DNA from: Sulfurovum sp. 16-42-52
GTDB taxonomy: Bacteria; Campylobacterota; Campylobacteria; Campylobacterales; Sulfurovaceae
Length of the DNA stretch: 55,271 nt
Assembly: GCA_002281755.1 (NCBI GenBank)
Contig: NCHB01000020.1
Span: forward strand, 1 to 55,271
Direction: 5' to 3'
The notes below the pieces were generated by a model. The model saw only the letters and a list, made by a program, of their open reading frames with translations. It did not search any database and was not told the origin of the DNA. The position numbers and the translations under genes were made by a program. Of this stretch, positions 48,909-52,856 are shown in pieces. Position 1 is the first letter of the stretch. Every line of letters begins with the position of its first letter.

Positions 48909-50783
48909 TTACTCTACTTCAGCATCGATAACATCGTCATCGTCTGCTTTTTTTGCTTCAGGGTTTGCACCGCCTTGCTCTTTGGCGTACATCGCTTCAG
49001 CCAACTTATGTGACTTTTCAGTCAATGCTTTAACTTTCTCTTCGATCTGCTCTTTGCTTGCAGAGTCATCTTTGAGTATCGCTTCAAGGTCTACTATGGC
49101 TGACTCGATGCCGGCTTTTTCGCCTGCATCAAAGTTTTCACCCAAATCAGCCAACGATTTTTTCGTTTGGTGCACCAAAGCATCTGCTTGGTTTCTTATC
49201 TCAACCACTTCTTTTCTCTTAGCATCTTCAGCTTTGTGTGCTTCTGCATCTTGTACCATTTTTTCTATCTCTTCATCAGAAAGACCGCTTGAACCGGTGA
49301 TCTTGATCTCTTGAGATTTACCTGTTCCTTTATCTGAAGCCGATACTGTCAAGATACCGTTTGCATCAATGTCAAAAGTAACTTCAATCTGTGGCACACC
49401 GCGTGGTGCAGCAGGGATGTCTCTAAGCTCAAACATACCCAAAGATTTGTTATCTTTAGAAAACTCTCTTTCACCTTGGAGAACATGGATGCTCACCGCT
49501 GGCTGATTATCCTCTGCTGTTGAGAATGTTTGTGACTTTTTGGCTGGAATCGTCGTTCCTTTTTCGATAACCTTAGTCGTCACTCCACCCAATGTTTCGA
49601 TACCCAAAGAAAGTGGTGTAACATCAAGCAATAAGACATCTTTCACATCACCTGCAAGTACCCCACCCTGAATCGCTGCACCCAGTGCTACAACTTCATC
49701 TGGGTTTACAGACTTGTTGAGGTCTTTAGCAAAGAATTTTTTCATCTCTTCTTGTACGAGTGGGATTCTTGTCGATCCACCGACCATGACGATTTCATTG
49801 ATGTCAGACTTACTGAGACCTGCATCTTTAAGTACACCCTCAACAGTTTTGATGGTACTTGCTACCAAGTCACCGATGAGTGATTCAAATTTTGCTCTTG
49901 TAATCTTCGTTACCAAGTGTTTTGGCCCGCTTGCATCAGCCGTGATAAACGGCAGGTTTATCTCTGTCTCAGTTGAGCTTGAAAGCTCTTTTTTAGCTGT
50001 CTCTGCAGCATCTTTTACTCTTTGAAGTGCCATCACATCTTTTTTGATGTCGATACCTGTATCTGATTTGAACGCATCAGCGACAAAGTCGATGATTTTA
50101 TTATCAAAGTCATCCCCACCAAGGAACGCATCCCCGCCAGTCGCCATAACTTCAACAACCCCATCACCTGTCTCAAGAGCCGTCACGTCAAATGTACCAC
50201 CACCCAAGTCATAAACTACTATTTGCTCTGCATTTTTCTTATCTAGTCCATACGCAAGCGCAGCAGATGTCGGCTCGTTGATGATACGAAGTACATTAAG
50301 CCCCGCAATCGTTCCAGCCTCTTTAGTTGCTTTTCTTTGCGCATCATTAAAATATGCCGGAACGGTGATAACTGCGTCCGTAACCGTCTCACCAAGATAC
50401 GCTTCTGCATCTTCTTTCATCTTCATCAACACTTTGGCGGAAATCTCTTGTGGTGTATAAGTCTTACCTGCTACCTCAATCGCACATGCCCCTGCTCTAT
50501 CGATAACATGGTACGGCAGTTTGCCCTGCGCTTCTTTGGCTTTCTCTTCGCTCATCATTAGACCCATGATTCTCTTAATGGAGTAAATCGTTTTTTCAGG
50601 GTTGGTAATGGCTTGTCTTTTTGCAGACTCACCCACAAGCACTTCACCTTTATCTGTAAATGCCACAATCGAAGGTGTTGTATTTTTACCCTCTTTGTTT
50701 GCAATAATCTTTGCTTCACCGTTTTCATACACTGCCATCGCAGAGTTTGTTGTTCCTAAATCTATTCCTAATACTTTTGCCAT
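48909..50783 (-). CDS. dnaK: Chaperone protein DnaK (Hsp70)
   Basis: ATP-driven protein-folding chaperone, 624 residues and full length. The ATPase domain starts [13 protein letters not shown], with [14 protein letters not shown] and [14 protein letters not shown]. The substrate domain has [18 protein letters not shown]. The C-terminus ends in the usual acidic [10 protein letters not shown]. It is 25 bases after grpE, in one operon controlled by HAIR-like sites. dnaJ is not adjacent. Confidence 0.98.
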
Positions 50784-50808: not shown

Positions 50809-51363
50809 TTATTTACAAGTTGAAACCATTGCTGGTCTCAATATGCGGTCTTTAATCATATACCCTTTTTGCATCACCTGCACCACATCACCGACTTCAT
50901 GCCCGTCGCTTTCAACCTGCATAATCGCCTGATGTACTTCAGGGTCAAACTCACCTGTACAGTCAACCTCTTTGATATGATTTTTTTCCAAAATCTTTTT
51001 GAGTTGATCGTAGGTAAGATTTACCCCTTCTTTCATCTTCTCTAGCACTTCAGAAGCATTCTCCTGCGTCACACTTTCCATAGAACTCAGCGCACTCTCA
51101 AAAGAATCCATCACGGCTAAGATGTCTTTTGCAAAACTTTCATTTGCATAGGACACTGCATTCATTTTATCTTTTTCAAGTCTTTTTTTTGCGTTTTCAA
51201 AATCTGCATGTGCTCTGAGGTATTTATCTTTGTACTCTGCCGCTTCAGCAAGAGCAACATCCAGTGGATCCACTTCTGACTCCCTGCCAGTCTCACCCTC
51301 TTCTTGCATATTTGCTACTTCTTCAGTCTGAGACTCTTCAAGGTTTTCATGCTCTTGACCCAT
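50809..51363 (-). CDS. grpE: Nucleotide exchange factor GrpE
   Basis: Releases ADP from DnaK. The 184-residue protein has an acidic, disordered N-terminus (EEVANMQEEGETGRESE), a long coiled coil (AEYKDKYLRAHADFENAKKRLEKD) and a C-terminal beta domain with EFDPEVHQAIMQVESDGHEVGDVVQVMQKGYMIKDRILRPAMV, the family signature. It begins the operon; in many relatives hrcA precedes it, but here gdhA (opposite strand) does. AGGAGGT precedes ATG 51363. Confidence 0.97.
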   Translation of the reverse strand: MGQEHENLEESQTEEVANMQEEGETGRESEVDPLDVALAEAAEYKDKYLRAHADFENAKKRLEKDKMNAVSYANESFAKDILAVMDSFESALSSMESVTQENASEVLEKMKEGVNLTYDQLKKILEKNHIKEVDCTGEFDPEVHQAIMQVESDGHEVGDVVQVMQKGYMIKDRILRPAMVSTCK

Positions 51364-51419: not shown

Positions 51420-51449
51420 ATTATACAACATTGAGTGAATGTTTGTCAA
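51420..51449 (-). promoter_or_regulatory. Sigma-70 promoter of grpE-dnaK
   Basis: On the minus strand TTGACA (51444-51449), an 18-base spacer and TATAAT (51420-51425). Both boxes match consensus. The -35 box lies within the proximal HAIR-like site. Confidence 0.8.
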
Positions 51450-51450
51450 G
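51430..51450. promoter_or_regulatory. HAIR-like operator 1 (HspR-type) over the grpE promoter
   Basis: ATTGAGT-N7-TGTCAAG against the HspR consensus CTTGAGT-N7-ACTCAAG: three mismatches in 14 positions. It covers the -35 box and most of the spacer. Confidence 0.55.
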
Positions 51451-51455
51451 TACTA

Positions 51456-51476
51456 CTTGAGTGAATATGACTAAAG
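51456..51476. promoter_or_regulatory. HAIR-like operator 2 (HspR-type) upstream of the grpE promoter
   Basis: CTTGAGT-N7-ACTAAAG, one mismatch in 14 against the HspR-associated inverted repeat. It sits just upstream of the -35 box, with its left arm 26 bases from that of operator 1. Confidence 0.65.
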
Positions 51477-51544
51477 TATAATTTTGTTGCGCTTGTTTAC
51501 GCTTTTAGGCTAAAATAACCATCCATAAACACAAAGGATGAAAC

Positions 51545-52856
51545 GTGCCAGTCAATCAAAAAATCGAAGAAATACTCACCTATGTACAAACATGCAGCCC
51601 TGGTCAAGAAGAATTTTACCAGGCAGCCCACGAAGTCCTACATTCTTGAAAGCATCGTCGTACCTGAACGAAGTATCATCTTTCGCGTCAACTGGGTAGA
51701 CGATGCAGGTAAACGAAGAACCAACGTCGGGTATCGTGTACAGTTTAGTTCAGCCATAGGCCCCTATAAAGGAGGACTGCGTTTTCATCCCAGTGTCAAT
51801 TTGGGGATTATCAAATTTTTAGGATTTGAGCAGATATTTAAAAACGCGCTTACCGGACTGCAAATTGGTGGGGCAAAAGGGGGAAGTAATTTTGACCCCA
51901 AAGGAAAAAGTGACAATGAAATCATGCGATTTTGCCAAGCCTTTATGTCTGAGCTTTACAAACACATAGGCAAACAAAGAGATGTCCCAGCAGGCGATAT
52001 CGGTGTAGGAGCCAGAGAGATAGGCTATCTGTTCGGTCAATACAAAAAACTAACCGGTGAGTTTGAAGGGGTGCTGACAGGCAAAGGGCTCAACTGGGGC
52101 GGCTCAAAACTAAGAAAAGAGGCAACAGGATACGGTTCGGTGTATTTTGCAGAAAATTTTTTGAAAGTCTATGACAAAGATTTAAAAGGAAAACGCTGCA
52201 CGGTATCTGGTTCGGGGAACGTAGCCATCTACACTATAGAAAAACTCTATGATGTAGGGGCAATTCCCATTAGTTGCAGCGACAGCAGAGGAACCATTTA
52301 TCATAAAAGCGGCATAGAACTCGCTTCGCTCAAAGCCGTCAAAGAGATACAGCAGCAATCACTTGAAGCCTATGCTGCCTTACATCCGGATGCTGTCTAT
52401 ACCTGTGCGTCACATTACCCAAAAGACGGACATGCCGTGTGGCACATTCCTTGTGATGTAGCTTTTCCTTCTGCAACACAGAACGAACTGACACTTGTCG
52501 ATGCACAAAAACTGGTAGAAAACGGCTGTATGCTTGTCAATGAAGGTGCCAATATGCCCACCACGCCTGAAGCTGTCGAGTATCTGCGCCTGCATAATGT
52601 GCTTTTTTCTCCGGGCAAAGCAGCAAACTCAGGCGGGGTTGCCACATCACAACTTGAAATGAGTCAAAATGCCAGCATGTCCAATTGGAGTGCTGAAGAA
52701 GTGGATATCAAACTGCGTACCATTATGAAAACCGTTTTTAAAACTGCCTACGATACTTCGGTAGAGTTTGGGTGTGAAGGTGATTTGGTCAAAGGGGCAA
52801 ATATTGCGGGGTTTAGAAAAGTTGCAGATTCGATGATAGAGCAAGGATCCGTCTAA
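51545..52856 (+). pseudogene. gdhA: NADP-type glutamate dehydrogenase, frameshifted near the N-terminus
   Basis: Hexameric GdhA interconverts 2-oxoglutarate and glutamate. A GTG at 51545 with AAAGGATG upstream starts MPVNQKIEEILTYVQ through AAHEVLHS, a normal GdhA N-terminus, but ends at TGA 51647-51649. The remainder is in another frame: ILESIVVPERSIIFRVNWVDD, FSSAIGPYKGGLRFHPSVN, GGAKGGSNFDPKGK (catalytic Lys), AGDIGVGARE, SGSGNVAIY and NEGANMPTTPEA to the end. About 14 residues equivalent to the LxPxLExxPxY helix are missing at the frame change, around CATTCTTG. An ATG at 51582 in the downstream frame would give a wrong N-terminus without a ribosome-binding site. Confidence 0.8.

Follow-up and report, generated by a model that had tools for sequence, protein, structure and literature searches.

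The window analyzed here, i.e. the whole stretch of 55,271 nucleotides from the sulfur-oxidizing bacterium Sulfurovum sp. 16-42-52, contains the heat-shock genes grpE and dnaK on the minus strand and, divergently oriented upstream of them, the NADP-glutamate dehydrogenase gene gdhA. This window is part of contig C36 in a genome assembly of 1.99 Mb (99.1% complete, 66 contigs), whose nearest named relatives are Sulfurovum. Between grpE and gdhA we identified a promoter and two candidate operators of the repressor HspR, which resemble the HAIR inverted repeat CTTGAGT-N7-ACTCAAG. The features of the locus are as follows.

48909-50783, minus strand: dnaK
50809-51363, minus strand: grpE, nucleotide exchange factor
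51420-51425, minus strand: -10 box TATAAT of the grpE-dnaK promoter
51430-51450, minus strand: proximal HspR operator (HAIR-like, candidate), three mismatches to the consensus, left arm holding the -35 box
51444-51449, minus strand: -35 box TTGACA of the grpE-dnaK promoter
51456-51476, no strand assigned: distal HspR operator (HAIR, candidate), one mismatch to the consensus, best match in the genome
51545-52856, plus strand: gdhA, divergent, with the frame broken near 51641 and the listed open frame starting at 51582

All 12 positions of the two boxes of the grpE-dnaK promoter, TTGACA-N18-TATAAT, agree with the sigma-70 consensus, an observation that bears on possible sigma-32 (RpoH) control. 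The proximal repeat spans the -35 box and most of the spacer between the -35 and -10 boxes, so that the right arm ACTCAAT falls inside the spacer; it reads CTTGACA-AACATTC-ACTCAAT on the coding (minus) strand and ATTGAGT-GAATGTT-TGTCAAG on the plus strand, and two of the three positions (out of 14) at which it departs from the HAIR consensus are demanded by the -35 box. The distal repeat is located directly upstream, at a start-to-start distance of 26 bp, and reads CTTTAGT-CATATTC-ACTCAAG on the coding strand and CTTGAGT-GAATATG-ACTAAAG on the plus strand. The sequence-only reading of this DNA, which placed two inverted repeats with one and three mismatches over and beside the -35 box of a consensus promoter, is thus confirmed at the level of the motifs.

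A single HAIR-like site with three mismatches means little, since the 90 such sites in the genome equal the background expected from base composition (89.7). The distal operator, by comparison, is the sole site in the genome with at most one mismatch, where 0.36 would be expected genome-wide and 3e-5 in the grpE-gdhA intergenic region. Among 20,000 dinucleotide shuffles of this 182-bp region, a site with at most one mismatch appeared in one, and two sites with at most three mismatches appeared in none. Four sites with at most two mismatches were found in the whole genome, two of them preceding grpE and groES; the other two, each with two mismatches, lie within long open frames and were set aside as background. 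The occurrence of the CTTGAGT-N7-ACTCAAG motif at chaperone promoters exceeds chance, as expected of an HspR regulon.

HspR control presupposes an HspR homologue in the genome, and a search for the repressor and for further HAIR sites recovered both. The genome encodes one HspR of 123 aa (NF047375 equivalog, 125.1 bits against a cut-off of 105), and HspR is present in 369 of the 399 genomes of the order. The hspR gene directly follows a cbpA-type dnaJ gene on a different contig from grpE-dnaK, and HAIR-like sites are found upstream of each of the four chaperone units, namely grpE-dnaK, groES, clpB, and cbpA-hspR. The cbpA-hspR site, CTTGATT-N7-ACTAAAC (three mismatches), lies over a TTGACA-N18-TATACT promoter and is conserved in the genus; hspR with a DnaJ-type gene under a HAIR site is the arrangement expected for a putative autoregulated repressor operon. 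The clpB site, CTTGACA-N7-ACTAAAG (three mismatches), repeats the design seen at grpE, with the -35 box in the operator arm. At groES, the site CTTTAGT-N7-ACTAAAG (two mismatches) is located 47 bp upstream of the -35 register. The groESL control region (L048, positions 1042-1156 of contig C35 in the source genome) has perfectly matching HAIR arms upstream, with neither a HAIR site on the core promoter nor a CIRCE element, and this upstream HAIR alone makes groESL the weak spot of a model in which HspR acts by itself.

The sequence-only reading also held that CIRCE, the operator of the repressor HrcA, is missing from grpE-dnaK, and no CIRCE element with three or fewer mismatches was found in the window or in the whole source genome; the best match at groES has seven mismatches, and no hidden or degenerate CIRCE turned up near grpE or groES. 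For the hrcA gene, a search of the source genome with the Pfam model PF01628 gave no match. This negative says nothing on hrcA and was discarded as a test, because the model is blind across the order: its cut-off is reached by none of the 399 genomes. In other families, an HrcA-family gene is located just ahead of grpE (NF003033, up to 281 bits; the cut-off of 248 is exceeded by two of the four HrcA-family genes scanned). We therefore used a replacement profile built from eight hrcA genes found beside grpE in relatives, which detected hrcA in 247 of the 399 genomes. That the Pfam model recognizes none of these proteins above its cut-off makes Pfam-based claims of hrcA absence in Campylobacterota unsafe. 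With the order-specific profile no hrcA was found in the source genome, and among 47 sampled genomes of the Sulfurovum family the gene was detected in a single one (G326), being missing from the source genome and from 45 of the 46 others. Fragmentation of the assembly into 66 contigs is a caveat to this absence, though the single-contig Sulfurovum genomes likewise lack hrcA by the same profile. No hrcA was seen beside grpE in 79 grpE loci of the family, within the retrieved sequence; an eightieth locus (L174), which does have hrcA beside grpE, is an Arcobacteraceae record. The idea that hrcA persists elsewhere on the chromosome, with CIRCE sites at other chaperone genes only, finds neither its gene nor its operator in this genome.

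The earlier suggestion that hrcA had been replaced by the divergent gdhA stands in so far as gdhA is divergent and hrcA is missing. It fails as a local replacement, because hrcA is missing from nearly the whole family and the gene upstream of grpE varies among its members, being gdhA, rpsO, or others. Several lineages beyond the Sulfurovum family have no hrcA either. Compared with four relatives, the gdhA gene of the window has a 50-bp deletion near 51641 that puts it out of frame some 32 codons in; the gene may be truly broken, or the assembly may be at fault here.

We compared the operators across the family in a set of 91 distinct grpE promoters, obtained from 111 loci of two sources, all of them hrcA-less. 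The composite element CTTGACA-N7-ACTCAAT, or a close form with ACTAAA, directly precedes TATAAT in 89 of the 91 promoters, a few of which have N6 in the HAIR site and a promoter spacer of 17 bp. In the remaining two (L126 and L155), the available upstream sequence is shorter than 100 bp, so that the promoters themselves probably fall outside it. A second, upstream HAIR site is present in 83 promoters at a threshold of four mismatches and in 54 at three, where the chance of a site with at most three mismatches in a shuffled 75-bp stretch is about 0.001 per promoter. The distal site starts 26-27 bp before the proximal one in 35 promoters, 47-52 bp in 46, and 72-73 bp in two; across loci L095-L173 it thus occupies mostly two discrete positions, for which helical phase or a lost middle site may be responsible. 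This family-wide conservation is the decisive evidence that the two repeats are no chance matches.

Taken together, these data make it very probable, as judged from comparative sequence analysis, that the grpE-dnaK control region is run by HspR alone and has lost its HrcA/CIRCE layer. At normal temperature, HspR would occupy the strong distal operator and then, probably cooperatively, the weaker proximal operator 26 bp downstream. Since the latter holds the -35 box (CTTGACA in place of CTTGAGT) and most of the spacer, bound HspR would keep the sigma-70 RNA polymerase off this near-consensus promoter. Upon heating or protein misfolding, HspR would be released and transcription would start from the strong promoter. 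The HrcA/CIRCE layer, which is found on the same promoter in most relatives, would have been lost as gene and operator together. The sequence-only proposal of HspR-alone control is upheld in its components, i.e. an encoded HspR, the absence of hrcA and CIRCE, and HAIR sites at four units, from which we infer HspR binding, cooperativity, repression (also by HspR alone), and heat release at grpE-dnaK.

Each part of this scheme has a competitor. The proximal repeat could be merely a conserved strong promoter, with HspR acting from the distal site alone; its -35 and -10 boxes are indeed near consensus, and HspR occupies far-upstream positions at Pgro and Phrc of Campylobacter jejuni and Helicobacter pylori. 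In the family alignment, however, conservation of the right arm ACTCAAT almost reaches that of the -35 box, even though the arm lies in the promoter spacer, in which sigma-70 does not require particular bases, and the adjacent N7 is free: most arm columns carry 1.4-2.0 bits, as against 0.1-0.3 bits in the four central columns of the N7 spacer. Fixed arms around a free spacer look like a dimeric repressor site, and a promoter alone would need no ACTCAAT arm. The same type of arm recurs at clpB and cbpA, and a full ACTCAA arm was absent from all further sigma-70-like sequences (10 or more of 12 positions matching) in the window and the other scanned stretches of the same genome. We therefore regard the promoter-only explanation as unlikely. 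That the distal operator serves gdhA, exclusively or in addition, is suggested by a TATAAT at 51477-51482 that abuts it on the plus strand and by the same divergent layout in the nearest relatives, and it is quite unlikely in view of three observations: the distal site is conserved where the upstream neighbor is rpsO or another gene, three of four gdhA-bearing relatives in the comparison keep the HAIR site without the gdhA-side TATAAT, and gdhA has no good -35 box.

Control by HspR together with a second partner, either an unrecognized repressor or a diverged HrcA, draws on the facts that repressors diverge, that the Pfam model misses every HrcA of the order, and that something else could act at groESL, which keeps its distal HAIR only and has no operator on the core promoter. 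Against it speak the empty result of the order-specific profile in the source genome and in the single-contig Sulfurovum genomes and the lack of any remaining CIRCE; an unsystematic inspection of the relatives' alignment noticed no further inverted repeat between the -10 box and grpE. Such a partner appears very improbable, and sole control by HspR remains the preferred reading of the grpE-dnaK region.

Comparison with the rest of the order suggests what is shared in this arrangement and what is derived. Of the 52 distinct promoters in the order with hrcA as the first gene, 48 have the composite -35/HAIR element, which by itself is thus no marker of HspR-only control. CIRCE (at most four mismatches) is present in 32 of these 52 promoters, near the hrcA start and some 35 bp downstream of the first HAIR position, and at the same threshold in none of the 111 loci of the hrcA-less family set. 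In G326 (locus L193), the single family member where hrcA was detected, grpE has a CIRCE as well (two mismatches), in a layout of HAIR followed by a downstream CIRCE. The hrcA gene and the CIRCE operator thus appear to have gone missing together, and the composite HspR site is common to the order, the derived feature of the Sulfurovum family being the loss of the HrcA/CIRCE layer. On a GrpE+DnaK tree, the hrcA-less part of the family forms one supported clade; hrcA presence changes at least eight times on the best tree and at least three times on well supported branches, although gains and losses cannot be told apart on a tree of two genes with long branches. Since hrcA is the first gene of the operon in the other lineages, its loss is the natural interpretation. 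Locus L193 is placed outside the hrcA-less clade, on a long branch.

The distal HAIR site is common in the hrcA-less families f1, f6, f11, and f16, absent in f23 and f3, and weak in f13/g13; it is also found in the hrcA-bearing family f10 and partly in the hrcA-bearing f20 and f9. The idea of compensation, by which a distal HAIR would appear when HrcA is lost, received no support from independent tree pairs (three pairs, p = 1). A separate case is the grpE promoter of G042 (locus L181, family f7), which has a near-perfect CIRCE (one mismatch) and lacks HAIR, in a 96% complete genome where searches for HspR and HrcA were both negative. As a tentative generalization, which we consider possible and on balance doubtful, Campylobacterota may have repeatedly reduced a two-repressor switch to HspR alone on DnaK, using a shared promoter whose -35 box serves as an HspR-operator arm and a second HspR dimer at 26 or 48-50 bp that takes the role of HrcA.

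What is known of the heat-shock circuit in this phylum comes from two pathogens, C. jejuni and H. pylori, in both of which dnaK is under the joint control of HspR and HrcA. In C. jejuni, the HspR targets are cbpA, clpB, groESL, and grpE-dnaK; HspR alone controls cbpA and clpB from the core promoter, the groESL and hrcA-grpE-dnaK promoters require both repressors, with HspR far upstream of the core and HrcA over the start site at Phrc and Pgro, and HspR fills weak sites cooperatively from a strong one (PMC7464140). In H. pylori, HspR binds Phrc at -150 to -82, also far upstream of the core (PMC6102357). HspR is further reported to control the dnaK operon of Streptomyces coelicolor (PMC7464140). 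The sequence-only reading took HspR-only control as the scheme known for other heat-shock genes, which is correct for C. jejuni cbpA and clpB and does not extend to groESL and hrcA-grpE-dnaK; HspR acting alone on dnaK would therefore be a departure within the phylum, and binding to the core promoter is not established by analogy, given the far-upstream position of HspR on the hrcA-grpE-dnaK promoters of both pathogens. A search of the open-access literature on HspR and HrcA in Sulfurovum, Sulfurospirillum, and Arcobacter, with subscription papers outside its scope, returned nothing on the grpE-dnaK control region. What is new here is the HspR-alone arrangement that we infer for the DnaK operon, HspR control of heat-shock promoters itself being already known. 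The Sulfurovum family offers a natural HrcA-less version of the circuit with the HAIR sites left, which can show the contribution of each repressor and whether HspR alone is a full switch; our analysis also suggests a usable rule for the order, namely that promoters with their -35 box inside a HAIR arm are likely to be under HspR control.

Sulfurovum shares with the dual control system of C. jejuni (PMC7464140) the HspR repressor, its four target units, and multiple HAIR sites with one strong site among weak ones; it differs from that system in having no hrcA or CIRCE and in the position of HAIR, on the grpE core promoter versus far upstream. Its grpE promoter is closer in layout to Pcbp and PclpB of C. 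jejuni and Pcbp of H. pylori (PMC7464140, PMC6102357), which have HAIR over the core and are controlled by HspR alone, as would be the case here; unlike in these promoters, the core-overlapping layout is found on the DnaK operon. A further parallel is found outside the phylum. In S. coelicolor, HspR controls the dnaK operon without HrcA, via several HAIR repeats, with hspR as the last gene of the operon and DnaK as the HspR co-repressor; the Sulfurovum dnaK operon likewise combines several HAIR sites with the absence of HrcA, while its hspR is located with cbpA on another contig.
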